The notes under the pieces were generated by a model. It was not told where the DNA came from. It did not search any database and saw nothing but the letters and a program-made list of their open reading frames with translations. A stretch of DNA of 64,000 nt from Dysgonamonadaceae bacterium (GTDB lineage: Bacteria; Bacteroidota; Bacteroidia; Bacteroidales; Azobacteroidaceae): NCBI GenBank assembly GCA_031253625.1, contig JAIRVZ010000092.1, positions 1 to 64,000 on the forward strand. Reading direction: 5' to 3'. Positions 9,637 through 64,000 of this stretch are shown here, piece after piece. Position 1 is the first letter of the stretch; each line of letters opens with the position of its first letter. The position numbers and the translations under genes were made by a program.

Positions 9637-10665
9637 TTATTTGTGAAGAATTTTCAGGGCTTTTTTTCGAATTTTTTCAGGAATTAATTTCCTTCGAAGA
9701 CGTATCCAATACCCTAATTTGTCATTGTGGATGTGAGCCATATTTCTATATAAGCCACATTGATAGCAAGGAGAATCTTTGCACACTCCTTGTCCCATAA
9801 GCATTTTTTTTGATTGTATTACTATTTCGGTGTTCAATGCTTTTTCCAAACCAATGTCAAAGACATTAACGTTAAAATCTTTCCAACAATTGACACAGCA
9901 ACCAAAAAGACGACCATCCCAATTAATTTGAGGCCTTTCGAAAAAATCGATACAAGGCATCTGCTCTGATCCGTCTTTGTTTATAACCGTCTGATAATCA
10001 TCCCTCTTTAGTATTTCCTCATTTTTGGTAATATAGCCATCCCATGATTTTCTAAAAACAATAGAAACATTTAAAGATGCAGCAGTTGTTATGGCACTCT
10101 GTATTTCTGTTTCAAAATCATTAGTTTCCATAATCACATACTTCCACCCAAGCAAAGGAAATTCGCTATTGTATTTCTTTTTATATTCATTCAACTTTTT
10201 AATATTATCAATTACAGCATCAAAATTACCTTTTCTCCTGTATTTTGAATAAATCTCTTGAGAGGCTCCATCAATTGCAACAACTACTCCTCTAAATTGG
10301 TATTTTACCAACGATTCTAATATTTCGTCGGAAACATGATTGAAATTCACACCTCCATCTGCATACAATATTACATCGTGCTGATATGCATATTCAATTA
10401 TTTTTAATAAATCTTTATTGAGGAATATTTCTCCACTGTTCGAAAGTTCAATCTCTTTGACATAAGGATTTTTATCCAAAAAATTTACAAAGTCAGAATA
10501 TTTCAAATAACCGGCTCCGTGAGCAGCATAGTTTTCTTTTCGCATATAACAGGATACACAATCTAACTGACATAAAGTAGACGCATCTAACCTGACCTCA
10601 GTTGGCAGCACATTAAGAGGAGGCATTTTTTTAGGAGACAAAAACGTACTTTTTCTTTTAACCAT
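9637..10665 (-). CDS. radical SAM / SPASM domain protein
   Basis: CQLDCVSC (CxxxCxxC) and C-terminal cysteine clusters. Confidence 0.88.
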   Translation of the reverse strand: MVKRKSTFLSPKKMPPLNVLPTEVRLDASTLCQLDCVSCYMRKENYAAHGAGYLKYSDFVNFLDKNPYVKEIELSNSGEIFLNKDLLKIIEYAYQHDVILYADGGVNFNHVSDEILESLVKYQFRGVVVAIDGASQEIYSKYRRKGNFDAVIDNIKKLNEYKKKYNSEFPLLGWKYVIMETNDFETEIQSAITTAASLNVSIVFRKSWDGYITKNEEILKRDDYQTVINKDGSEQMPCIDFFERPQINWDGRLFGCCVNCWKDFNVNVFDIGLEKALNTEIVIQSKKMLMGQGVCKDSPCYQCGLYRNMAHIHNDKLGYWIRLRRKLIPEKIRKKALKILHK

Positions 10666-10860
10666 GATTTATTTTAATGTATTTTACTAATTACGTGACA
10701 ATATTGTTACAAAAAACATGGCATCACATAATAACAAAGATACAATAATTATTTCAGAATTGCAAAAATATTTCAGTTTGAAGAAATATTTGGCAAGCAA
10801 GCCGGAATATATTATTTTTGAGGCGATTTCGATGTATGCAAATCTGTTAATTGCAATAAA

Positions 10861-11991
10861 ATGAAGATACAACAAGTTGATTTAACGACACAATATCTCC
10901 GTATTCAGAAAGAAATGGATGAGGCTGTCCTGCAATGTATCCGTTCCGGAGCGTATATTAATGGAGCGGAAGTAGGTATTTTTGCTCAAAATTTAGCCGG
11001 ATACACGGGAGCGCAATATGTTATTCCTTGTGCAAACGGAACAGATGCTTTGCAAATAGCTTTGATGGCGTTGGATTTGCAGCCCGGTGATGAAGTGATT
11101 GTTCCGGCATTTACATACGTTGCGTCGGCAGAAGTTATTGCTTTGCTCAAGCTTGTTCCAGTACTTGTTGATGTCGATTTCGAAACATTCAATATGGATG
11201 TTGAAAAGTTCAAAAAAGCCATAACAAATAAGACAAAAGCGGTTATCCCCGTACATTTATTCGGACAAACTTGCGATATGCAACCTATTTTAGAAATCTG
11301 CAAATTGCATAAAATAGCCGTTGTAGAAGATAATGCTCAAAGCATTGGTTCTGTTTATACTTTTTCTGACGGACAGAAATTACAGGCGGGAACAATGGGA
11401 GACATTGGTACACTTTCATTTTTTCCTGCTAAAAACTTAGGTTGTTATGGTGATGGAGGAGCAATGTTGACTAACAATGAAACATTGGCAGGCAAACTTA
11501 AAATGATTGCCTCTCATGGTCAATCCCGTAAATATTATCATGATGTAGTGGGATGCAATTCTCGTTTAGATACATTGCAAGCTGCTATTTTAAATGTGAA
11601 ATTGAAATATTTGAGCGATTTTATTGAGGCTCGTCAACAGGCAGCTACATACTATAACGAGCAGTTACAAGAGTTGTCTGGTTGTATTGTTTTGCCTGCG
11701 GTTGCTGATTATTCGACTCATGTTTATCATCAATATACCATCCGTTTAAAAGAAGGGAAAAGAGACGAGTTGAAACAATTTTTGTATGAAAAGAATATTC
11801 CTTCGATGATTTATTATCCGTTACCGCTTCATCATCAAAAAGCGTTTAAAGATATTATCCGGGTTGGGAGCGACTTGAGCCAATCGGAACAACTCTCTCA
11901 ATCGGTATTGTCGTTGCCCATGCATACGGAATTAAACAAAGAGCAACAAGATTATATTATTGACTCGATTAAGCAATTTTTTAACAGATAA
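10861..11991 (+). CDS. DegT/DnrJ/EryC1/StrS family PLP-dependent aminotransferase
   Basis: [27 protein letters not shown]. Confidence 0.95.
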
Positions 11992-12002
11992 ATTTTATCC
12001 GA

Positions 12003-12577
12003 TGATTTCAATTCAAATTCATCCTACAGCGGTTGTCGACGAAGGTTGTCAAATCGGAAATGGAACAAAGATTTGGCATTTCTCGCACATAATGACGAAG
12101 GCAGTTATTGGAAATAATTGCAATATCGGTCAGAATGTTGTTGTTTCTCCGGAGGTGGTGTTAGGCAATAACGTGAAAGTACAAAATAATGTATCTATTT
12201 ACACAGGTGTTTTGTGCGAAGATGATGTATTTCTCGGCCCTTCCTGTGTATTCACTAATGTTGTTAATCCCCGGAGTTTCATTTCCCGGAAAGAAGAATA
12301 CAAGCAAACCTTAGTAAAAAAAGGGGCAAGTATAGGAGCCAATGCTACCATTATTTGCGGATGCACTATCGGTGAATATGCAATGATTGGTGCAGGTGCT
12401 GTCGTAACCAAAGATGTTGCTCCGTATGCTTTAATCGTTGGAAATCCCGGACAACAAATCGGGTGGATAAGTCAATCGGGATACCGGTTGGATTTTGATT
12501 CCAATGGCATTGCTGTTTGTGAAGAAAGTGGAGAAAAATACAGATTCCAAGATGGCAAAGTGCACAGAATGGAATAA
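12003..12577 (+). CDS. hexapeptide-repeat acyltransferase (WbpD/WlbB-like sugar N-acetyltransferase)
   Basis: Left-handed beta-helix repeats [13 protein letters not shown]...; start [15 protein letters not shown]. Confidence 0.9.
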
Positions 12578-18056: not shown

Positions 18057-19463
18057 TTAGAAATTAAAGAAATTTTTAGCATTATAATAAGATACATTTT
18101 CTACTAATTTGCCGATAAATGTCAATTCGGATACTGGTAATAAACCTTGTTCCACATCATTTCCAATCAGATTACAAAGAATACGACGGAAATATTCGTG
18201 ACGCGGATAAGAGATAAAACTGCGCGAGTCGGTCAACATGCCTACAAAACGACTCAGCAAACCAAGAACCGACAACGAATTCATTTGTGCCTCCATTCCA
18301 GTTTTTTGGTCTAAGAACCACCAACCCGAACCGAATTGAATTTTTCCGGCCACCGAACCGTCTTGAAAGTTTCCAATCATCGTAGCAATCAACTCGTTGT
18401 CGCGAGGATTGAGATTATAAATAATTGTTTTTGTCAGTTTATTTTCCGTATCCAAGCGATTCAGGAATTTCGACATGTTTTTCGCAACTGTGAAATCTCC
18501 GATAGAATCAAAACCGGTATCTGCTCCTAATTGTTTGAACAGGCGAGTATTGTTGTTACGGATAGTTCCGTAGTGAAGTTGTTGTGTCCAACCTTTTTCC
18601 CAATCCATAACGGCAAATTCAACCATCATGGCTGATTTGAATTTCAGGATTTCTTCGTTCGACAATTTTTTGCCGCCATACACTTTATTGAATATCGCTT
18701 CAATTTCTGCTTCGGTATAATCTTCTGCATAAAATTCTTCGATTCCGTGGTCGGATAATTTACATCCTACCGATGCGAAGAAATCGTGACGCACGCGAAG
18801 TGCTTGTAACAAATCGGCAAAATTACTGATGGAAACACCCGAAGCTTCGGATAATTTCTCAACGTAAGCGCGGAAATCGGCAGGGATTTCTACCGCCATC
18901 GCTTTATCCGGACGCCAAGTAGGAAGTACTTTTACGCTGAATCCTTCGTTTTTCAATGCAATATGATGTTCCAAAGAATCTACAGGGTCGTCAGTCGTGC
19001 AAACAGACTCCACGTTGTAGTGTTTCATCAAACCGCGGGCAGAAAATTCGGGAGTACGCAATTTCGCGGTACATTCGTCATAAATTTCTTTAGCTGTTTC
19101 GGGTTTAAGGACTTTAGTTACACCAAAAGCAGATTTCAATTCTAAATGTGTCCAATGATACAATGGGTTACGCATGGTGTAAGGAACTGTTTCTGCCCAT
19201 TTTTCAAATTTTTCCCAGTCGCTTGTATCTTTTCCAGTGCAAAAACGTTCGGCGACACCATTAGTACGCATGGCACGCCACTTGTAATGGTCGCCTTCCA
19301 ACCAGATTTGGCCAAGGTTATCAAACTTACGATCTTTTGCGATATGCTCCGGATTCAAATGACAATGATAGTCGATGATCGGTAATCTTTTAGAATGTTC
19401 GTGATAAAGAAATTGTGCTGTCTCCGTTTGCAAAACGAAGTTGTCGTCCATGAATGTTTTCAT
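18057..19463 (-). CDS. uxaC: glucuronate isomerase
   Basis: MDDNFVLQTETAQFLYHEHSKRLPIIDYHCHL; full-length UxaC. Confidence 0.97.
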   Translation of the reverse strand: MKTFMDDNFVLQTETAQFLYHEHSKRLPIIDYHCHLNPEHIAKDRKFDNLGQIWLEGDHYKWRAMRTNGVAERFCTGKDTSDWEKFEKWAETVPYTMRNPLYHWTHLELKSAFGVTKVLKPETAKEIYDECTAKLRTPEFSARGLMKHYNVESVCTTDDPVDSLEHHIALKNEGFSVKVLPTWRPDKAMAVEIPADFRAYVEKLSEASGVSISNFADLLQALRVRHDFFASVGCKLSDHGIEEFYAEDYTEAEIEAIFNKVYGGKKLSNEEILKFKSAMMVEFAVMDWEKGWTQQLHYGTIRNNNTRLFKQLGADTGFDSIGDFTVAKNMSKFLNRLDTENKLTKTIIYNLNPRDNELIATMIGNFQDGSVAGKIQFGSGWWFLDQKTGMEAQMNSLSVLGLLSRFVGMLTDSRSFISYPRHEYFRRILCNLIGNDVEQGLLPVSELTFIGKLVENVSYYNAKNFFNF

Positions 19464-19480
19464 ACTTATAAAAATTTTAT

Positions 19481-19563
19481 AAGTGAAAAACGAAAAGTGA
19501 AAAGTGAAAAAATATTTTTAGCGCAATTAAATTTTTCACTTTTCGTTTTTCACTTTTCACTTA
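19481..19563. repeat. Solo GTGAAAAACGAAAAGTGAAAA inverted repeat (hairpin)
   Basis: Same motif as the repeats at 15711/16118, here with a short loop and no ORF. Confidence 0.8.
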
Positions 19564-20403
19564 TTTAAGTTTGTCTGCTGTAAATGTATCCATATCATTG
19601 TAATCTAAATTCTCGCCACACATTGCCCAAATGAAAGTATAATTACTTGTTCCGGCAGCGGAGTGAATCGACCAAGAAGGAGAAATCACAGCTTGCTCGT
19701 TGCCCATAAAAATATGGCGAGTCTCTTGTGGTTCGCCCATAAAGTGGCAAACAGCCTGTTCTGCAGGTACTTTGAAATAAAAATAAGCCTCCATACGACG
19801 AGAATGCGTATGAGGAGGCATCGTATTCCAAGCACTTCCCGGTTGAATTTCGGTCATACCCATTTGTAATTGGCAACAAGGCAATATTTCGCTCAAAATC
19901 AACTGATTCAAGATACGCTTGTTACAAGTTTCCGCAGCACCCAAATCTTTTACTCTTCTCATTTCGGAAGTGATTTTTGCCGAAGGATAAGCAACGTGAG
20001 CGGGAGAAGACGCAATATAATACTTGGCAGGATTCGCCTTATCATTACTTTTGAAAACAACTTCTTTCGCACCACGACCGACATAAAGTGCATCTTTGAA
20101 AGTCATCGGAAAATCTTTGCCATCTACCGTAACCACACCGTTGCCTTCTATACAAACTACGCCTACCTCGCGACGTTCGCAGAAATATTCGGAACGGATT
20201 AAATCGACGGTTTCTAATTTCAGAGCCTCGTTTACAGGAAGAATTCCTCCAATAATCAAGCGATCATTGTGCGTATAAGTCAATAATACTTCGTCGGCAG
20301 CAAATAATTTTTCGACTAAAAATTCTTTACGCAATTGTGTTGTGTCGTAATGTTTCACGTCGTTGGGATGCGTTCCCCAACGTTCTTCAATCGTTGTTTT
20401 CAT
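19561..20403 (-). CDS. kduI: 5-dehydro-4-deoxy-D-glucuronate isomerase
   Basis: RWGTHPNDVKHYDTTQLRKEFLVEKLF; MPPHTHSRRMEAYFYF. Confidence 0.97.
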   Translation of the reverse strand: MKTTIEERWGTHPNDVKHYDTTQLRKEFLVEKLFAADEVLLTYTHNDRLIIGGILPVNEALKLETVDLIRSEYFCERREVGVVCIEGNGVVTVDGKDFPMTFKDALYVGRGAKEVVFKSNDKANPAKYYIASSPAHVAYPSAKITSEMRRVKDLGAAETCNKRILNQLILSEILPCCQLQMGMTEIQPGSAWNTMPPHTHSRRMEAYFYFKVPAEQAVCHFMGEPQETRHIFMGNEQAVISPSWSIHSAAGTSNYTFIWAMCGENLDYNDMDTFTADKLK

Positions 20404-52259: not shown

Positions 52260-52346
52260 CGGAAGCGGGGGGATTCGAACCCCCGGTACAGTTACCCGTA
52301 CGTCAGTTTAGCAAACTGGTGGTTTCAGCCACTCACCCACACTTCC
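52260..52346 (-). tRNA. tRNA-Ser(GCT)
   Basis: 87-nt class II tRNA; GGAAGTG/CGCTTCC acceptor; anticodon loop TTGCTAA; long variable arm. Confidence 0.95.
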
Positions 52347-55033: not shown

Positions 55034-55981
55034 ATGAAAAAAATCAGCACATTATTAACCGGTTTTCTTATGATGTTTTTTGCTGCTTCTGCGCAAATAT
55101 CTGATATCGAATTACGTGAAACATTGGATTTAATAAATAAAGACAGTCTTAGTCACACAGTGCAGTGTATGGAGAACTTTGAATCGCGACGATGTAATAA
55201 AACCATTGGTCACAACAAAAAAGTTGCCCAATATTTGGTAGATCGCCTAAAAGCGTATGGTATTGAAAATGCCCGCATTGACTCTTTTGTGGTATCAATT
55301 CCGAATCATTGGTTAGCAGGCCCGGTAAATCAATATATGTATAATGTATTGGGAACCTTGAAAGGCACAGGAGAAACCGATTCTACCGTGATTATCGGTG
55401 CGCATTTGGATGCCATCTCTTTTACAGGAACGCGTCCGGATTTTATTCTCGCAGAAACCGCGCCCGGCGCCAATGATAATGCTTCCGGTTGTGCCGTGAT
55501 GATTGAAATGGCACGAATTATCTACGAAAATAATTTAAAACCGTATCACAATATTGATTTTATGGCTTATGATGCGGAAGAGATCGGCTTATTGGGCTCT
55601 TACTACGATGCAGGAAAAAGACGTGCAGCAAACGAAAATATCATTGTAATGTTGAATAACGATGTGGTGGCTTATGAGCCGGAAGAAGATTGGGGGATAT
55701 ACCTTGTCGGACATAGTAATGCATTAGATGTTATAGAAAAAGCAGAACAAGCACTGATAGATTACACCATTGTTTCTCCGTTTTTTGCAGCCCTTGATAC
55801 TGAAAGTAGCGACAACTATCCTTATTACAAAAAAGATTATAAAGCTATTCGCTTTGTCGGGAAAAATTACAGTGCGTTTCCTCATTCTGAGAATGACCAT
55901 TCAGAAATTTTGAATTTTGAATTTTGCCGGCAAATTGCAAGAATGAATTTCGTTTTGCTTGCACATTACGCTGTTTTTTAA
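55034..55981 (+). CDS. M28 family metallopeptidase, secreted
   Basis: VIIGAHLDA; PGANDNASGCAVMIEMA; DFMAYDAEEIGLLGS. Confidence 0.93.
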   Translation: MKKISTLLTGFLMMFFAASAQISDIELRETLDLINKDSLSHTVQCMENFESRRCNKTIGHNKKVAQYLVDRLKAYGIENARIDSFVVSIPNHWLAGPVNQYMYNVLGTLKGTGETDSTVIIGAHLDAISFTGTRPDFILAETAPGANDNASGCAVMIEMARIIYENNLKPYHNIDFMAYDAEEIGLLGSYYDAGKRRAANENIIVMLNNDVVAYEPEEDWGIYLVGHSNALDVIEKAEQALIDYTIVSPFFAALDTESSDNYPYYKKDYKAIRFVGKNYSAFPHSENDHSEILNFEFCRQIARMNFVLLAHYAVF

Positions 55982-57069
55982 TCCTTTTGGTTCAACTCAT
56001 CCAACGGACTTCTAACATTCCTCAACTGGCGATTACCCACTTTAGCATAAATCTGGGTAGTTTTTATATCTCTGTGTCCCAGTAGCTTTTGGATAAAAGT
56101 CATGTCGGTTCCACATTCCAACAAATGCGTAGCATAACTATGCCGTAAGCCATGAATTCCCACCGATTTATTGATTTTCGCTTTTTGCATGGCATTTTTA
56201 AAAACAGCCTGTACACTGCGAATAGCATATTGTCCGCCATATTGACCCTCAAACAGGTATATTTTAGGACGATAAGCCCGATAATAATTTCGCAAATCAT
56301 CGAGAATGCTTTCGGGTAAATTTACATATCTATCCTTTTTCCCTTTCGCATTTTCGATATGTACCATCATTCGACTGCTGTCGATATTGGTAATTTTCAG
56401 ATTCACAATTTCGCTAACACGCAAACCCATTCCGTAGCACAATTTAAGCATCAACAAATGTTTCGGATTTTCAACTTGAGCAAAAATCCTCACAATATCT
56501 TTCTTGCCGATAACTTTAGGAAGCTGTGATTTCTTTTGTGGGCGGGGAATTTCCTCAAAGAAAATCTTCTCACGATGCAGCACTTGCTCAAAGTAAAATT
56601 TTACGGCGTTCATTCGACTATGAATAAGGTTTTCCGAAAATTTTAACTTTGTTATGCAATACAAAAAATAAGACCGTAAACGTTCAGGTGTCAATGTATC
56701 TACAGATGTACCTTTAAGCAAATAGAGTAATTGTGAAAATTCGGCACAGTAAATTCTAATGGTGCTTGGACTGTATGCTTTGAGCAAAAGCAATTCATGC
56801 ATTCGTTTGAGTGCAACAAGATTTACCGGATGAATTTGACTAATAACGGCTTTCCCCATTTCCGTTTTAGGCATCAAGCCAATTTCATTTCTAATGGCAC
56901 TACTATCGGGCAAATACCAACATTTTTTAGAAGAGCTCCACTTAGCTGTAGGAACCTTTTCCTTCAATTCATTTTTTAATAAAAGATTGTAGGGGAAATG
57001 CACAAAAATAACATTTTTATTTTGGTATTCGCCTGTCAAGAATTGGTAATTTTGATGGTTAAATGACAT
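55978..57069 (-). CDS. tyrosine recombinase/integrase with extra N-terminal domain
   Basis: GMGLRVSEIVNL, HGLRHSYATHLLECG, LGHRDIKTTQIYAKV, C-terminal VRSPLDEL; start taken at MSFNHQ. Confidence 0.92.
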   Translation of the reverse strand: MSFNHQNYQFLTGEYQNKNVIFVHFPYNLLLKNELKEKVPTAKWSSSKKCWYLPDSSAIRNEIGLMPKTEMGKAVISQIHPVNLVALKRMHELLLLKAYSPSTIRIYCAEFSQLLYLLKGTSVDTLTPERLRSYFLYCITKLKFSENLIHSRMNAVKFYFEQVLHREKIFFEEIPRPQKKSQLPKVIGKKDIVRIFAQVENPKHLLMLKLCYGMGLRVSEIVNLKITNIDSSRMMVHIENAKGKKDRYVNLPESILDDLRNYYRAYRPKIYLFEGQYGGQYAIRSVQAVFKNAMQKAKINKSVGIHGLRHSYATHLLECGTDMTFIQKLLGHRDIKTTQIYAKVGNRQLRNVRSPLDELNQKD

Positions 57070-57136
57070 ACGCATTTCTAAATATAAATTTTTACAAACA
57101 TACATAAAAACGAGGTAATATTATAATGATTTTTCA

Positions 57137-57165
57137 TTTGAAAAACAGTTTTTTAATTACTTTTG
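57137..57165 (+). promoter_or_regulatory. Bacteroidota-type promoter reading toward the cassette array (Pc-like)
   Basis: TTTG (57137-57140), 17 nt, TACTTTTG (57158-57165). Confidence 0.5.
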
Positions 57166-57346
57166 CAAAAACAGTGTTCAAATAGACAAACTCTAATATG
57201 CGTATTTTGTATAGTCAAAATTTGTATTGACGTAACAATTACAATACAAGACACGAGACATACAAAAATACTAACAGCTAATAAACAGCGACTTATATGG
57301 AGATTTATCATAAAAACACAGAAAAAAACATGCGTCAATTTAACTC

Positions 57347-57353
57347 GTTAGCC
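57347..57353 (+). other. GTTAGCC: candidate attI/left boundary of unit 1
   Basis: Exact reverse complement of GGCTAAC at 58477-58483. Confidence 0.5.
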
Positions 57354-57426
57354 GTCATGCGGGGGCGACAGTGCAGTGGACAAAGAAGTGAAGATTGAAA
57401 AAATGTAATTATATAAATTAAAAAGT

Positions 57427-58437
57427 ATGAAATCATTAGAAATTGAAGGTTATATTTTTAACCCTGTCATTCCAGAAGAGAAAGTATCTGTAACTAATAT
57501 TGATGTATATTATGGATATACTGATGTGATAATAAAAAGGAAATTAGTAGAACAATTAAAAACTATTCCTGAATTAGGGCGGGAACTTGTCAATTTGCCT
57601 AGTGGAATTAAAATACAACTACCTTATGTAGAAATTGGGATAAGAATAAATTCTGTTAAATTTAATAACCTTAAAGCATTCGTTGTTGAAGATAACTACT
57701 ATGATTTAGTATTGGGAAAAAGTGCCATTTCAGAACTTTTTGATTTTGAAAATATTCAAGTTTCAAATAGGAAAAAAGAAAGTAAGGAATTATTATCAAT
57801 AAGAATTCATTCAGTAGACAATTCTTATAAGATTTTAAATGTTGAAAATTTTCTACGAGAAAGTAGAAGACTTTTCAATGTATCAATGATTATTGAAGGA
57901 GAAATTGAAGTAAACACATTAGAAGATATTGATAATGTAATTGATAATGAAATCGGTATTCCTGAAAATAAAAAATTACAATTATCTTGGATTGAGGAAG
58001 GCTCAATTTGGATTACATTGAAATCAACAGCAAAGTCTCTATTTTCTTTCGGAAAAATGCTTGTTGGTGGTAAATCCTCAATATTGGAAGAAAAATTTTA
58101 TGAAGCAAAGAAAAATAAAATTGAAAGTGAAACTCTACAAGAACTACTACCACAAATTATAGAAGAAAGGAAAGCGGAAAAAGAAAAATTTACAGCAGAA
58201 CACCGCCACGAAACAAACAAGATATGGAGAGAAGAAATGAAAGAGCAGATTTCTTTTTTAGATGAAATGATTACCAAGACTATCAAACCCGAACTTGCTT
58301 TAAAATTGATAGAAAAGAAAAATGAAATCATAGAAACATTATGCAATCAAAATATGCTACCAGAGATAATAAATATGCCTGATAAACAAATGCTTGGAGA
58401 TAATCCTCGAAATTTGCCCATAATCTACGAAGAATAA
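57427..58437 (+). CDS. hypothetical protein, unit 1 ORF; N-terminus resembles a degenerate retropepsin-like fold
   Basis: Complete ORF; AFVVEDNYYDLVLGKSAISELFDF resembles the second half of clan AA proteases, DTG triad absent. Confidence 0.65.
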   Translation: MKSLEIEGYIFNPVIPEEKVSVTNIDVYYGYTDVIIKRKLVEQLKTIPELGRELVNLPSGIKIQLPYVEIGIRINSVKFNNLKAFVVEDNYYDLVLGKSAISELFDFENIQVSNRKKESKELLSIRIHSVDNSYKILNVENFLRESRRLFNVSMIIEGEIEVNTLEDIDNVIDNEIGIPENKKLQLSWIEEGSIWITLKSTAKSLFSFGKMLVGGKSSILEEKFYEAKKNKIESETLQELLPQIIEERKAEKEKFTAEHRHETNKIWREEMKEQISFLDEMITKTIKPELALKLIEKKNEIIETLCNQNMLPEIINMPDKQMLGDNPRNLPIIYEE

Positions 58438-58476
58438 AAAACTTTAAACGAAATTAAACCAGAAAATGCACGAACG

Positions 58477-58604
58477 GCTAACGAGCGGTTTCACGCAAGC
58501 GGGGGTGTATGCCCGCAGAAAGTTTTGTGGGAATTTGGAAGTTTATCGCCCGCCCGAACATTTGTGAAACCCCCGCCTGCGTGAAGCCGCCACCACGTAT
58601 GCAA
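58477..58604 (+). repeat. attC-like inverted repeat 1
   Basis: GCGGTTTCACGCAAGCGGGGGT (58486-58507) pairs with ACCCCCGCCTGCGTGAAGCCGC (58570-58591), 20/22; flanked by GGCTAAC and GTATGC. Confidence 0.6.
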
Positions 58605-58829
58605 GCGGTGCGCAAAATTTTCGGGCGACTTAGCTACGTTTGACAGTTTTGCTCTTTGATTAACTTTTGCAAATTGCTGTAAATCATAAAATTAAAAGAA
58701 AAACAAATACAATTGAAAGTTAAATATAAATGTTAAAAATCATATGAAAAGTTCCTTTTTTTGGTTTTTTATTTGAAAATATCTATTTTTGAAAAAAATA
58801 TTGCGAATTGCTTAAAAATCGTGTAGTTT

Positions 58830-59930
58830 ATGGATAGTTTTGTCATACAATTTGTGGAAACCAAATGGAAATATTGTTTGGTCGCTACCTTTTGTGTGCT
58901 TTCACTTTCCGTTGTTAACGGTCAAACAATAGATACCAAAATCCTGCCGGGACTTACTGGTGGCGTTCAAATAGAAACACAAAGTCCGTTATATAATGCT
59001 GCATTTCTCGAAATTTCCGATATGCTTGACGACAAGCAGCCTTTGAGCATCAAACGTGCTGTTTTCCTTACGGAATGGGCTTACCTTGATGGAAAGTTGG
59101 ACTATGAGGAATTTTGTAAAACGATAGACAATGCTGCTGATTTTATCGAAAAATTCATAAAGGCAAACGGAATGGAAAAATACAAGACCGCCAAAAACAT
59201 GGCGCTTATCGAATATTTTTTCCGCCCTTATTCGGGTAACGATCATAAGCCTTTTATATACGATTTTAGCGATGTTGAAGGAATCGAAGATTATACTAAA
59301 CAATTTGTAAGCAAAGTTATGCAAACACACTCAGGGCAATGCCGTTCTTTGCCAATGTACTATAGAGTGCTTGCTGAAGCTGTCGATGCTGAAGCATACA
59401 TCGCATACGCACCACGCCATGTATTTATCCGCTATCGTGATGAAGATAATTTTTACTCTGAAGAATGGGTAAATGTAGAGCTTACAACACATCAATTAGT
59501 CCCTGAATTTGCGATTAAAGAAGGTTTTGAAATAACCGAAAAAGCGATTGAAAATAAACTTTATCTTCATCCGCTGACTGCAAAGGAAACGGTTGCTGTT
59601 CAACTTGCCGACCTTGCATTTGGATATTGGGCTAAATATAAGTTTTGTGACGATTTTACATGGCTATGCGCTAACAAATCGTTAGAATATTATCCTCAAC
59701 ATCCCAAAGCTCTTGCAACTAAAGGAAATTATCTCGAATCGGCTATTATAAAACGTTTGGCATACAACGGATATGGCATTGATGAGCAGATTCTATTTCT
59801 TGAAAGCCAATTGAAAATGGTTTCCGAACAGTTGGAACATTTGGGTTGGGAAGATATGAGTGAAGAGTTGGAAGCTGAACTCAATAAGGTTGGCGAAGAC
59901 GTAAAGAGAGAACAAGAAGAAAAATTTTAA
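58830..59930 (+). CDS. exported transglutaminase-like protein (module 2)
   Basis: Clear paralog of 21851-22939; same THSGQCRSLPMYYRVLAEA / APRHVFIRYRDEDN / WVNVELTTHQ motifs. Confidence 0.7.
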   Translation: MDSFVIQFVETKWKYCLVATFCVLSLSVVNGQTIDTKILPGLTGGVQIETQSPLYNAAFLEISDMLDDKQPLSIKRAVFLTEWAYLDGKLDYEEFCKTIDNAADFIEKFIKANGMEKYKTAKNMALIEYFFRPYSGNDHKPFIYDFSDVEGIEDYTKQFVSKVMQTHSGQCRSLPMYYRVLAEAVDAEAYIAYAPRHVFIRYRDEDNFYSEEWVNVELTTHQLVPEFAIKEGFEITEKAIENKLYLHPLTAKETVAVQLADLAFGYWAKYKFCDDFTWLCANKSLEYYPQHPKALATKGNYLESAIIKRLAYNGYGIDEQILFLESQLKMVSEQLEHLGWEDMSEELEAELNKVGEDVKREQEEKF

Positions 59931-59962
59931 ACAAAATAAAAGACAATAAAAATTTAGATATT

Positions 59963-60781
59963 ATGAGAACAAGACAATTTTTTATCACTACTGCAATGAT
60001 TTGCATTGCATTTTTATTTTCAACAAATTCAGCATACAGCTTTCCTTGGCAAAGTCCGTATGCACACGCAGCAAATAATCCGATTAGGTATGTTGATGTA
60101 AATGGGGATAGTATATCGTTCTCCTATCAGTATAATGCAAATAATGAGTTGACAGGAGTAACAATGAATGTTACGGGTAAAGTCATTAATGTTTCTTCCA
60201 ACTCGAAAGTAAATATGCAGGCTGCTGCAAATCGAATTTCCAATCAAATAGCATCTTCTTTTAGTGGAAATGTAAATGGTGTTTCATTTTCAACGAATGT
60301 AAATTTATCTGTTGCTAATTCTATGGATGATGTCGCAGACAGCGACCATGTATTTGCCTTAGCTGATATGGGAAGTATTGCAACACCAGATGGGAGTAGA
60401 ACTCCTAATGGTGGGTCAAATATGATGGGAGGAAAAGTTGCTTTTATAGATGTAGATTATTTTTCAGGACCTTGGGATACATCATTTGGAGATACAGGAC
60501 CAAGAACTGCAGGTCATGAATTTGGTCACTTGGCAAATTTATCTCATGTAACAGGAGGCTCAAATTTAATGATTCAGGGAGCCGGAAATTCTTGGGGCTC
60601 TTTTGGGGCAACAAAAATTAATAATGGTCAATTAAAATCAATCCACGGGTCATATATAGGTGGATATTTGAATTTAGGTAGTAATTATGAGTTAATTCCT
60701 AGAGTTAATCCTACAACAGGAAGGATAGAAATGAAAGCAATGCCTAATAGAGGAGGAGTAAAATCAGTAATAAAATACTGA
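59963..60781 (+). CDS. secreted protein: signal peptide + minimal RHS-core tip + metzincin-like zinc protease domain
   Basis: SPYAHAANNPIRYVDVNGDSI after the signal peptide; HEFGHLANLSH (HExxHxxxxxH), then SNLMIQG. Confidence 0.7.
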   Translation: MRTRQFFITTAMICIAFLFSTNSAYSFPWQSPYAHAANNPIRYVDVNGDSISFSYQYNANNELTGVTMNVTGKVINVSSNSKVNMQAAANRISNQIASSFSGNVNGVSFSTNVNLSVANSMDDVADSDHVFALADMGSIATPDGSRTPNGGSNMMGGKVAFIDVDYFSGPWDTSFGDTGPRTAGHEFGHLANLSHVTGGSNLMIQGAGNSWGSFGATKINNGQLKSIHGSYIGGYLNLGSNYELIPRVNPTTGRIEMKAMPNRGGVKSVIKY

Positions 60782-60782
60782 A

Positions 60783-61466
60783 ATGACAAGATTGACATAC
60801 ATATTTGTTCTTTTTATTATAATTCTGACAGGTTGTAATAAGTATTTTAAGCCTACTGGTATCATTGACAGGACAGAGGAGTTTTCTGGTAAAAACATTT
60901 GGGTTTCCTTAAACGACAAAGAGAGGATAGATGGTTATACAAGAATTGGAAATTCTATATTTGGAGGAGAAATTGCTTGTAACATAGAGCCGCTAAAAAA
61001 TATTGATACTGAAACTTTTCAAGTCTTGGCAGGTACGCAATACGCAAAAGACAAGAATAATGTTTATTATCCAATAGAAATTCCTTGCATTGATTTTGTT
61101 GACTGTAGCGTTTGTTTTTATGATAGAATAATTGTAGAAGGAGCCAATCCAATAGATTTTGAATATTTAGACAAAGATTATGCAACAAGTGGTAATATAG
61201 TTTTTTTTCGAGGAGAATTATTAAAAGGTGCTGATGGTGAAACATTTAAAGTAATCGAAGGCCCAAGATATTTCTACTTTGCAACAGATAAAAACAATGT
61301 ATATAAGCACAACAAAATCGTAAAAGATGCAGACCCTTCTACTTTTTATTATGATGACACCGACTCAAGAAATGTAATTTCAGAAATTTTCGATAAATAT
61401 ATAATTGGAGACAAGAATAATAAATGGGAATACTTGCCTCCTGATGAAATGAAAAAGATAGAGTAG
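60783..61466 (+). CDS. DKNYY-like lipoprotein (candidate immunity/partner, module 2)
   Basis: Lipobox IIILTGC; repeated DKNNVYYP / DKNNVYKH; 1-nt gap from the upstream stop. Confidence 0.65.
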   Translation: MTRLTYIFVLFIIILTGCNKYFKPTGIIDRTEEFSGKNIWVSLNDKERIDGYTRIGNSIFGGEIACNIEPLKNIDTETFQVLAGTQYAKDKNNVYYPIEIPCIDFVDCSVCFYDRIIVEGANPIDFEYLDKDYATSGNIVFFRGELLKGADGETFKVIEGPRYFYFATDKNNVYKHNKIVKDADPSTFYYDDTDSRNVISEIFDKYIIGDKNNKWEYLPPDEMKKIE

Positions 61467-61739
61467 ATATAACTTTGAAGTACTTTTGTTTCTCATAACA
61501 GACAGAATTTATTGATAGATAGTTGGCTTTCGCCATGTTCGCTTTGCGAACACCGCACCGCCAACCCATGCCCCAAAATGGCTGCGCCATTTTTCGGCTC
61601 TGCCCACCCCCCACCCAAATACATTTGGCTTTGCTCACTTTGACAGTTTTGTGACAATTTCAGAGGACTTTGTTCGGCTATATTTGGAAATTTAGCACTT
61701 CGATTGACATTCCTCATTTTTACGCTAAAAAAATCGCCA

Positions 61740-61870
61740 GCATACAACGTGCAGTTTGGCAAAATGGCGGGCTTGTCTCGTCCGAAATTTTGTTTATATT
61801 TGTAGCGGTAGCTCTCGTCCGAGCGGTGGTGGAAACCCGCCACTTCGCCAAGCTGCTGCTCCGTTGTATG
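61740..61870 (+). repeat. attC-like inverted repeat 2
   Basis: GCATACAAC ... CGTTGTATG; GCAGTTTGGCAAAATGGCGGG pairs with CCCGCCACTTCGCCAAGCTGC, 18/21. Confidence 0.65.
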
Positions 61871-62013
61871 TAATGCGCGGGCAACCGAGCAGTAGTGCAA
61901 CTTTGAAGCGAAAAAACTGAAAATTTTGTACGAAAAAATATTTTTCGTGTTTTATTGGGAAGAAAAACGAAAAAAGATTGTATCTTTGCAAATTATAATT
62001 GTGAATATGTCAT

Positions 62014-63387
62014 ATGGAGTTATCAACAAACAATAATAATTCAGAAAAAGAATTATTCCAATCATTAAGTCAGAGTTATTCGGAGATTTTACCACCGAAT
62101 AAAGAGACTTTGTTGTTGATAGTTTGGTTGTATAAAAAAGTTGAAAATGGCTCTATTGCAGAAGAATTTGATGAAAAAGACTTTTATGATACATTTGACG
62201 AAGTAAAAGATTTTTTGCAGATTGAGAAAGATAAAAATGTGGAATTAATTTCTCAAAAAATTAGCAATCATTTTTATCAAACAGGAAGCGTTGGAAATAA
62301 ACATTTTATGTGTTTAACTATATATGCAAAGAATCTTTGCCGACTTTTGATAGATGAAATTCAACCTGAATTGGTAAAATTGGAGTTATATCATACTTTC
62401 AAAAGAACATTACCATTACAAGATGAGGATTTGAGAGATATAGAAACACTCAAATATTGGTATGACAAGCATTTTCTGCCTGCAAGAAATGAAATTTATA
62501 AACATATCGAACAACTACACAACGACGTTTCTGAAAAAATATCGGAATTAACGGTACTTTTGAAAAAGAATAACGATAATCCGAAAGAGCAAATAGAATC
62601 TTACGGAAGAATTTTTGAAGACCTCGCTCAAAGAGTTCAAGGTATAATTAGTGCCTTGGATTACAAAGATGAAACTTTGCGAAAAGTAAAATCCTCAAAA
62701 AATGTATTTTTGACTAATCGGGAAGATTTTGAAAAATACAATCATATCCAAGAAGAAGTCGAATTATTTTTTAATAGCATTGACAGACGAGTTTCTTCGA
62801 TAAGTGATAAAATTCAATTAGCCTCAAAACGATTGAGAAACTTATTGGATACTTTGAAACATAAACAACAATTTAAAATCAACATAGAAAAATTGTTGTT
62901 GTTTTTATTGCAGAGTAGCAAAAGAGAGAAAAAAGGCAGTAAACCTGATTTTGAAATTATTGTGCACGAAAAACTGAGAAACAAGTGTCTGTCGTTTATT
63001 CCGACAAAATTTGTTTCAATTCCAAAATTAGACTTTCAAGTACAGAACAAAATTGAGCCACAACAAACGAAATACGATAAACAACACGAACAAGCAGAAA
63101 GAAACAAAGGACTTGCTTTGCTCGAAATACAAGAATCTACCGCAAAATGGCTTGACGAAATAAATCAGCATTTGCTTTCCAATGAAATTTTGGAGTACGA
63201 CAAATGGTTTGATAAAATTATTGAGAAAGAAAATAATTTGGAAGTTCCTATCAAAGTTTGTTTTGGTTTGATTGATGAACATAATAACTCAAATGACAAG
63301 CAAATAACTATCGAAAAAAAGAAAATCAGTAAAAATAATCACGATTTATCATTATGGAAAATGCAAATACAGAATATCAATTCTTAA
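62014..63387 (+). CDS. MukF/kleisin-like protein (Wadjet JetA- or MksF-like)
   Basis: N-terminal winged-helix-like region, long coiled coil; overlaps a MukE/JetB-like gene. Confidence 0.5.
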   Translation: MELSTNNNNSEKELFQSLSQSYSEILPPNKETLLLIVWLYKKVENGSIAEEFDEKDFYDTFDEVKDFLQIEKDKNVELISQKISNHFYQTGSVGNKHFMCLTIYAKNLCRLLIDEIQPELVKLELYHTFKRTLPLQDEDLRDIETLKYWYDKHFLPARNEIYKHIEQLHNDVSEKISELTVLLKKNNDNPKEQIESYGRIFEDLAQRVQGIISALDYKDETLRKVKSSKNVFLTNREDFEKYNHIQEEVELFFNSIDRRVSSISDKIQLASKRLRNLLDTLKHKQQFKINIEKLLLFLLQSSKREKKGSKPDFEIIVHEKLRNKCLSFIPTKFVSIPKLDFQVQNKIEPQQTKYDKQHEQAERNKGLALLEIQESTAKWLDEINQHLLSNEILEYDKWFDKIIEKENNLEVPIKVCFGLIDEHNNSNDKQITIEKKKISKNNHDLSLWKMQIQNINS

Positions 63388-64000
63388 ACTCGGACGATGC
63401 AATAAAATATTTTGCTGATGCAGATATTGCCCTAAAACAAGGGCGGCACATTCAGAATTATGGCAACGATACACAGATATTTTATTTCATAGATGAATAT
63501 TTCGATAAAGGACTTGAAGAATATTACGCCATTTTTTGGTTGATGAAATTAACCAAAGATTCAAATGATAATGAGCGTTTTTATTATCTCGAACCACCCG
63601 AAGGTAGCAGAGCGAAATTTGGGAATCGGTTTAAAGAATTAGAGGGTGAAAAAATAATTTTTGCCATTCTTTTGTTGAATTTGGAGAAAGAAAAGTATTT
63701 TGAAGAAAAAGAATTTTCGTGGCAGGAACTTGAACAAATCTTCAAAGAAAGTGAAAACAAAACCCTTTGGAAAAAATTGTTGTTTGGCAAAGACAAAGAA
63801 AACTATACACCAACGGAAGAACAAAATGTAAAAAAGAAAGTAAGGCAAATTTTGAGTGATTTTGAAAAATTGGGTTGGATTGTTATGAAAAGTGAAGATG
63901 AAATGCAATTTGACATATTGCCAAGTATCGCCCGAATTGGTCGACTTTATGCTGATGTAATCAATAATATTGAAACAATAGAAGAATTTTTAAGCAATGA
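63354..64000 (+). CDS. MukE-like (JetB/MksE-like) protein, truncated by window end
   Basis: ATG at 63354 inside the previous ORF; LKQGRHIQNYGNDTQIFYFIDEYFDKGLEEYYAIFWLMKL ... LSDFEKLGWIV...FDILPSIARIGRLYADVI; no stop before the window end. Confidence 0.5.
   Translation, partial: MENANTEYQFLNSDDAIKYFADADIALKQGRHIQNYGNDTQIFYFIDEYFDKGLEEYYAIFWLMKLTKDSNDNERFYYLEPPEGSRAKFGNRFKELEGEKIIFAILLLNLEKEKYFEEKEFSWQELEQIFKESENKTLWKKLLFGKDKENYTPTEEQNVKKKVRQILSDFEKLGWIVMKSEDEMQFDILPSIARIGRLYADVINNIETIEEFLSN

Follow-up and report, generated by a model that had tools for sequence, protein, structure and literature searches.

The integrase locus and its array

The window analysed here comprises 64,000 bp from a Dysgonamonadaceae bacterium (assembly GCA_031253625.1), namely the first 64,000 of the 71,898 bp of contig JAIRVZ010000092.1 (C89), the downstream part of which we also read. 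Towards its right end lies a tyrosine recombinase gene, whose product we refer to as the integrase, followed on the opposite strand by an array of units, each closed by a palindromic repeat resembling the attC sites of integrons (Table 1). An earlier note, made from the sequence without database searches, had described the integrase, a GTTAGCC boundary (57347-57353) and two two-arm repeats of about 130 bp, and on direct reading all were found where it placed them. It had proposed a Bacteroidota integron or integron-analogue with atypical attC sites. The proposal is borne out as an analogue by cassette logic, orientation, an attI site, unit-precise mobility and co-occurrence with the integrase; the observation is real, and larger in extent than first noted.

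The junction between the attI-like site and unit 1 lies at 57347|57348. All four units on C89 begin with bases that pair with their own closing site, as the earlier note had described for the two complete units it saw. In unit 1 GTTAGCC (57347) pairs with GGCTAAC (58477), and in unit 3 the boundary TTGTATG (61864) pairs with the R'' core CATACAA of site 3. A fourth palindrome near the end of C89 is truncated, and there CCTACAACG pairs with CGTTGTAGG. The pairing in unit 2 is imperfect (GTATGC, 58597, with GCATAC, 61740): the junction reads CG^TATGC where its own site predicts CG^TTGTATGC, hence the three bases 'TTG' have apparently been lost. The predicted single-strand folds of both repeats in the window, a check that the earlier note had suggested, are better than those of shuffled sequences (z -1.7 to -3.4).

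Table 1. Features of the integrase locus. Positions are those of the window unless prefixed C89; R1 is the covariance model of attC-like sites described below; ORF, open reading frame.
Feature	Position	Strand	Basis or remark
Integrase, tyrosine recombinase, 375 aa	55978-57105	-	Pfam Phage_integrase 1e-34, SAM_4 2e-9
Integrase N-terminal domain, ~60 aa	56881-57060	-	DUF5710-like
attI-like site TGCGTCAATTTAACTCG^TT, between integrase and unit 1	57331-57349	+	Family consensus TGCGTATATTT before junction
Unit (cassette) 1, 1250 bp, one main gene	57348-58597	+	Left TTAGCC pairs with own R'' GGCTAA
Unit 1 ORF, 336 aa	57427-58437	+	Weak retropepsin-like match
attC-like site 1	58474-58604	+	R1, 77.8 bits, E 1.8e-18; member of 44-site alignment A1
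Unit 2, 3266 bp, three genes	58598-61863	+	Degenerate left core CG^TATGC
Unit 2 ORF a	58830-59930	+	Transglutaminase-like match, below cutoff
Unit 2 ORF b, secreted	59963-60781	+	Weak matches: Rhs-like stretch, HExxH (HEFGH) metallopeptidase-like motif
Unit 2 ORF c, DKNYY family protein	60783-61466	+	Pfam 1.7e-19
attC-like site 2	61740-61870	+	R1, 72.9 bits, E 3.9e-17
Unit 3, 8168 bp	61864-64000	+	First 2.1 kb in window; ends at C89:70031
Unit 3 gene order	MksF-position ORF 62014-63387, MksE from 63354, then MksB (two frames), TOPRIM-position ORF, DUF6088, AbiEii	+
attC-like site 3, closes unit 3, 6 kb beyond window	C89:69908-70038		R1, 73.6 bits
tRNA gene	52260-52346	-	Sole Rfam match in window

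Array orientation, boundary pairing and attI

Relatives of the integrase with 50-79% identity define 80 loci, nearly all from Bacteroidota, and R1 finds about 138 sites in 47 integrase loci. All but three of the sites (135/138) point away from the integrase, with 67 of them upstream and 68 downstream of its gene; hence the integrase may face either way, and the array always reads outward. The median cassette length is 728 bp, and in 78 of 86 cassettes the longest reading frame is on the cassette strand. Large multi-gene cassettes, which the earlier note had inferred, are thus present in the window but unusual for the family, in which one main gene is the rule. Cassette-encoded proteins include adenylyltransferase, Arr, beta-lactamase-family and MerT proteins, along with several defence families.

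An inserted integron cassette begins with the 3' part of its own core, and to our knowledge cassette recombination sites are the only class of repeat that predicts such pairing. Across 89 successive cassettes, the seven bases after TT matched the core of the cassette's own downstream site at 5.63 of 7 positions, compared with 2.91 ± 0.14 for permuted partners (maximum 3.36 in 2000 permutations) and 3.14 for the core of the preceding site. Since the junction positions are fixed by the previous site, the comparison is free of search bias. The low scores appear to come mostly from cores that were parsed wrongly (CGTCA, CGTAA) and were retained in the count. Chance is excluded as an explanation of the pairing at the level of the family.

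Seeking the predicted boundary between the integrase and the first site revealed a conserved integrase-proximal junction, TGCGTATATTTGAG^TT. The 11-base motif TGCGTATATTT lies within 24 bases of 30 of 36 distinct junctions, with no more than two mismatches, as compared with 0.6% of random positions. Contig C82 has a second attI copy, next to which 26 residues remain of another integrase gene. The motif often includes TATATTTG, and in 15 of the 36 junctions a match to TAnnTT[G/A/T] stands just before the junction. Given that TATATTTG resembles the Bacteroidota -7 promoter box, TAnnTTTG, attI may carry a cassette promoter.

A family of sites with a conserved stem

A plain BLAST search with one attC against its own genome matched only the query, because the stems are conserved and the letters are not, and a covariance model was needed. 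The sites were first found by a scan for GC-rich arms; 44 of them, from Bacteroidota loci, were aligned (A1) to give the model R1, which also detects sites in plasmids never used in building it. They are palindromes of 100-117 bp with a single layout: ...CTAACA, an arm, a loop of about 50 nt, a second arm and ...CGTTAG.

In the 44 sites a 19-bp stem is paired at 93.9% of positions where 64.0% is expected from 500 shuffles. Covariation along the stem is 0.674, against 0.167 ± 0.015 for the shuffles, none of which reached the observed value, and it falls to 0.03-0.11 when the stem partner is slid (0.06 for a slide of one base). Some selection is built into these statistics, since the sites were found through their arms. 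An A.C mismatch at columns 26:117, which was not a selection criterion, is present in all 44 sites and could mark the recombining strand.

The cores do not follow the classical code, as the earlier note had cautioned: only 9 of 136 fit RYYYAAC and 3 of 119 fit GTTRRRY. The conserved letters are AAC and GTTR alone, and the cores read ...NNAAC[A/G] and CG^TTRNN. Furthermore, R1 gave no match at the class 2 integron cassettes (dfrA1, sat2, aadA1) of one Acinetobacter plasmid (L142).

Two attC-like sites in the home genome, one at the end of C89 (L119:16783) and one on C82 (L130:2237), are cut at the same place, AACGAGCGG. Both continue with AATTCTATGTTTCCC and are unrelated beyond it, possibly reflecting an element that targets attC-like sites.

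The integrase

The catalytic residues R229, K254/K256, H318, R321, H344 and Y353 fall in invariant columns of the integrase alignment, and 75 of 85 family members end in a C-terminal SPLD tail, similar to the SPLS of IntI. The best match in the PDB, by sequence and by fold, is the integron integrase 2A3V. The alignment to 2A3V skips about 35 IntI residues, which form the insertion carried by true IntI sequences; the earlier note's caveat that this insertion is absent is thereby confirmed. The score against TIGR02249 is 189 bits compared with a cut-off of 265. In a tree the family forms one clade, distinct from IntI and from the Bacteroidota Xer proteins, and the tet(X)-linked and plasmid integrases lie close by; three IntI rows in the tree are too few to fix the deeper branching order.

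The N-terminal domain has a beta-beta-alpha-beta-beta-alpha arrangement with F37, W56, W63 and R72 invariant, and occurs in this clade but not in the IntI references. It is DUF5710-like in 28 of 41 members and showed no fold match in the PDB (best E 0.72). Our guess is that it helps to read the folded sites.

Distribution across genomes

Sites were found in 142 of 297 Bacteroidota genomes and the integrase (E <= 1e-50) in 90, with 79 genomes having both, 63 sites only, 11 the integrase only and 144 neither (odds ratio 16, p 6e-21, uncorrected for relatedness). Arrays occur in Flavobacteriaceae, Weeksellaceae, Cytophagales, Sphingobacteriales and Bacteroidales. Two large arrays, one of about 25 sites in 37 kb (G097) and one of about 20 sites in 73 kb (G226), run on one strand and start beside the integrase.

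Isolated sites are common as well. Among 20 tested, eight end a unit that begins behind an attI-like motif (no more than two mismatches); since the boundary search takes the best match, it is the coincidence with the motif alone that carries information. The home genome has two such isolated units behind TGCGTATATTTGC[G/A]AG^TT, one of which lies between two genes recognised by eye as hisG-like and hisD-like. The earlier note had held that repeats found genome-wide without relation to unit boundaries, or without any recombinase, would refute its proposal. Repeats are indeed present genome-wide and in genomes lacking the integrase, but even the isolated ones terminate a unit, and an attI-like target often precedes that unit.

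Some further occurrences stand apart. About 30 solitary sites are scattered over one chromosome (G073), and several of them have in common a longer stretch upstream (AGTTG..ACAAGAAG..GCGTATATTAGC), possibly a target used repeatedly for integration. Four termite-gut bins labelled Treponema, Lachnospiraceae or Oscillospiraceae (L047, L111, L113 and L114) carry the integrase, through either transfer or mis-binning.

Cassette mobility and tet(X)

A 1435-bp cassette is present at 97-98% identity in three assemblies: a Bacteroidetes metagenome-assembled genome, Flavobacterium enshiense and Flavobacterium sp. SM15 (L072, L101 and L110). In comparisons with L072 the homology breaks off no more than 3 bp from the predicted boundaries, and the flanking sequences are different. 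Between L101 and L110 it overruns by about 76 bp on the left, where the right arms of the preceding sites are alike, and by about 30 bp on the right. A pair of 894-bp cassettes of equal length (L070, L091) was rejected as one shared cassette and is not boundary evidence, since the two are only 84.6% alike and their homology continues leftwards for 28 bp beyond the cassette.

Sphingobacterium faecium pWB8 and Empedobacter brevis pSE1-3 share the tet(X2) unit at 100% identity over 1332 bp; the homology ends within 2 bp of the boundaries, and the neighbouring sequences differ between the two plasmids. The closing site of the unit scores 112 bits with R1, and the boundary TTATGTGCC pairs with the core GGCACATAA. 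The sequence comparisons indicate that cassettes move from one context to another as exact units. Both pWB8 and pSE1-3 belong to plasmids with further sites, which lie around blaOXA-347, estT, floR and erm(F), and around lnu(H) and arr, and a Chryseobacterium plasmid carries the integrase with five sites.

Acinetobacter plasmids with tet(X3) and tet(X5) show the same left boundary, ...GGCGTATAGCCACTTG^TTATGTGCC, behind a truncated relative of the integrase. Given this attI-like junction, tet(X) takes the place of a first cassette there. R1 found no closing attC after tet(X5) or tet(X3) in these plasmids (L127, L142); the 3' end of the unit has been lost, and hence only the left boundary counts as evidence. 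The tet(X) features concerned lie at L127:5353 (NZ_CP044520.1), L142:7838, L139:7001-8328, L140:7001-8328 and L141:2290-2425. Earlier studies left the 'xerD' adjoining tet(X) without an explained role (PMC7473080, PMC8635130, PMC11194056). The cassette boundaries of tet(X2), together with the left ones of tet(X3) and tet(X5), give a role to this gene beside plasmid tet(X).

One plasmid array contains an IS110-family transposase (L128:16203-17204) and a group II intron reverse transcriptase (18669-19985). Both IS110-family elements and group II introns target attC sites in classical integrons.

Gene content of the window units

The unit 1 ORF has no relative across 247 genomes of the order, and strain variation of unit 1 was thus not found. 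In unit 2 the genes suggest a secreted enzyme plus partner, with ORF c possibly the partner or immunity protein. The effector module that the earlier note had inferred is, as a reading of unit 2, suggestive only. Unit 3 carries a condensin-like operon in which MksE is identified and MksF, MksB and the TOPRIM-like protein are assigned by position. The possible anti-plasmid system of the earlier note is partly supported: MksE is clear, and MksB is split between two frames (L119:8997-10232 and 10367-12307; C89:63997-67307), either by a real break or by an assembly error.

Discussion

Our data are consistent with a model where the integrase recombines the attI site beside its gene, with a core around TGCGTATATTTGAG^TT, with the attC-like sites of circular cassettes. 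Each cassette would usually consist of one gene ending in an imperfect palindrome of 130 nt, with the two cores described above. Exchange would take place at CG^TT or within about 3 bp of it; both the exact cut position and the catalysis of exchange by this integrase are what we infer from the sequences. After insertion the cassette would start with the 3' half of its own core, and its first bases would hence correspond to the 5' half of the site that closes it. By analogy with IntI, attC would probably be recombined as a folded single strand, on which the 19-bp covarying stem and the A.C mismatch could mark the strand. Repeated insertion would build one-directional arrays reaching at least 70 kb, and single cassettes would also enter attI-like targets elsewhere. 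We are confident that the locus represents a Bacteroidota gene-cassette capture platform which works like an integron, with an integrase branch and recombination sites of its own.

Several points weigh against this reading. No excision or integration was observed, and the evidence for mobility comes from comparing sequences. Folding energies showed no clear preference for the bottom strand (mean -1.0 kcal/mol, 30 of 44 sites). The association of sites with the integrase lacks the correction for relatedness, 63 genomes have sites and no integrase at the threshold used, and one of the genomes (G322) has about 19 clustered sites and no integrase of the family. Within the window array itself the core of unit 2 is degenerate, there is no relative with which to compare unit 1, and MksB is split; this particular array may therefore be partly decayed.

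The locus could alternatively be a classical IntI integron that has merely escaped annotation, with a divergent IntI and ordinary attC sites. The cassette logic is the same, 2A3V is the nearest structure in sequence and fold, and the C-terminal SPL tails are similar. The missing insertion, the TIGR02249 score, a clade apart from the three IntI sampled, the rarity of RYYYAAC and GTTRRRY cores and the silence of R1 at class 2 cassettes all speak against it, and we regard it as unlikely. Two defining features of the classical IntI family, the insertion and the core code, were tested and found absent, and hence the system falls outside that family.

Host XerC/XerD might instead move the cassettes as pdif-like modules in place of the neighbouring integrase, given that the tet(X)-linked enzyme is named 'XerD' in the literature and that many genomes have sites without a close integrase. 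This is very improbable, as the sites are hairpins of about 130 nt with covarying stems, unlike 28-bp dif-like sites, the arrays begin beside the integrase and follow its position upstream or downstream, and the integrase co-occurs with the sites and falls outside the Bacteroidota Xer clade. Repetitive extragenic palindromic (REP) sequences and miniature inverted-repeat transposable elements (MITEs) are common in bacteria, and sites are also found away from integrase loci and in genomes that have no close integrase. That the palindromes should be such intergenic repeats (REP/BIME-like, terminators or MITEs) with the recombinase a bystander is nonetheless barely credible. Repeats of these kinds would not pair with the left end of their own unit, would not all be directed away from the integrase and would not define unit-precise presence in unrelated contexts; moreover, isolated sites often terminate a unit that lies behind an attI-like target.

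Beyond the capture platform itself, we think it reasonably probable that these loci constitute a second, phylum-wide type of integron. Its integrase clade would never have had, or would have lost, the IntI insertion and would read folded sites of a different core code with the help of an unrelated N-terminal domain; it would insert cassettes at an attI with its own promoter box and also at chromosomal attI-like places. Through this system, tet(X) and other resistance genes of Bacteroidota would have been packaged before they arrived in Acinetobacter and Enterobacterales. Integrons are regarded as mainly proteobacterial. An integron-like system that extends to almost half of the Bacteroidota genomes sampled would thus represent a neglected driver of gene exchange in soil, water and the gut. 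Related plasmids carry tet(X), a last-resort tetracycline-resistance gene, as one package; the system explains the 'xerD' beside tet(X) and provides a testable source for tigecycline-resistance cassettes. The integrase also offers a natural comparison for the integrase parts required to read folded single-strand sites.

Comparison with known systems

We found no earlier description of the system in the open literature (preprints and most subscription papers lay outside this search, and priority is accordingly not certain). IntegronFinder 2.0 names Salinibacter ruber M1 as the sole complete Bacteroidetes integron (PMC9024848); the phylum is shared, and the arrays found here are not reported there. 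An integron-like subgroup of simple tyrosine recombinases likewise groups integrases by catalytic fold, and in the parts of that study available to us is linked only to integrons, with no such sites or cassettes described (PMC8138268). The 'xerD' (tpnF) beside tet(X3), tet(X5) and tet(X14) has been treated as a recombinase of unknown role, with no cassette sites described (PMC7473080, PMC8635130). It is a relative of the integrase (45.6% in residues 135-372) and adjoins a cassette of this system; in two Acinetobacter plasmids, unlike the window integrase, it is truncated to 222 aa. Xer/dif modules differ in that the units here end in palindromes of about 130 nt and have no 28-bp dif-like sites.

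The closest likeness is to classical integrons, both class 1-3 and the Vibrio superintegrons. They share an integrase-proximal attI, a one-directional array, cassettes of one gene that end in a folding palindrome, a left boundary derived from the cassette's own core, and the occurrence of orphan arrays and secondary sites. The present system differs from them in having no IntI insertion and another N-terminal domain, in cores that read CG^TTRNN rather than GTTRRRY, in conserved stem mismatches in place of a demonstrated extrahelical base, in its attI motif TGCGTATATTT and in its Bacteroidota-wide distribution.

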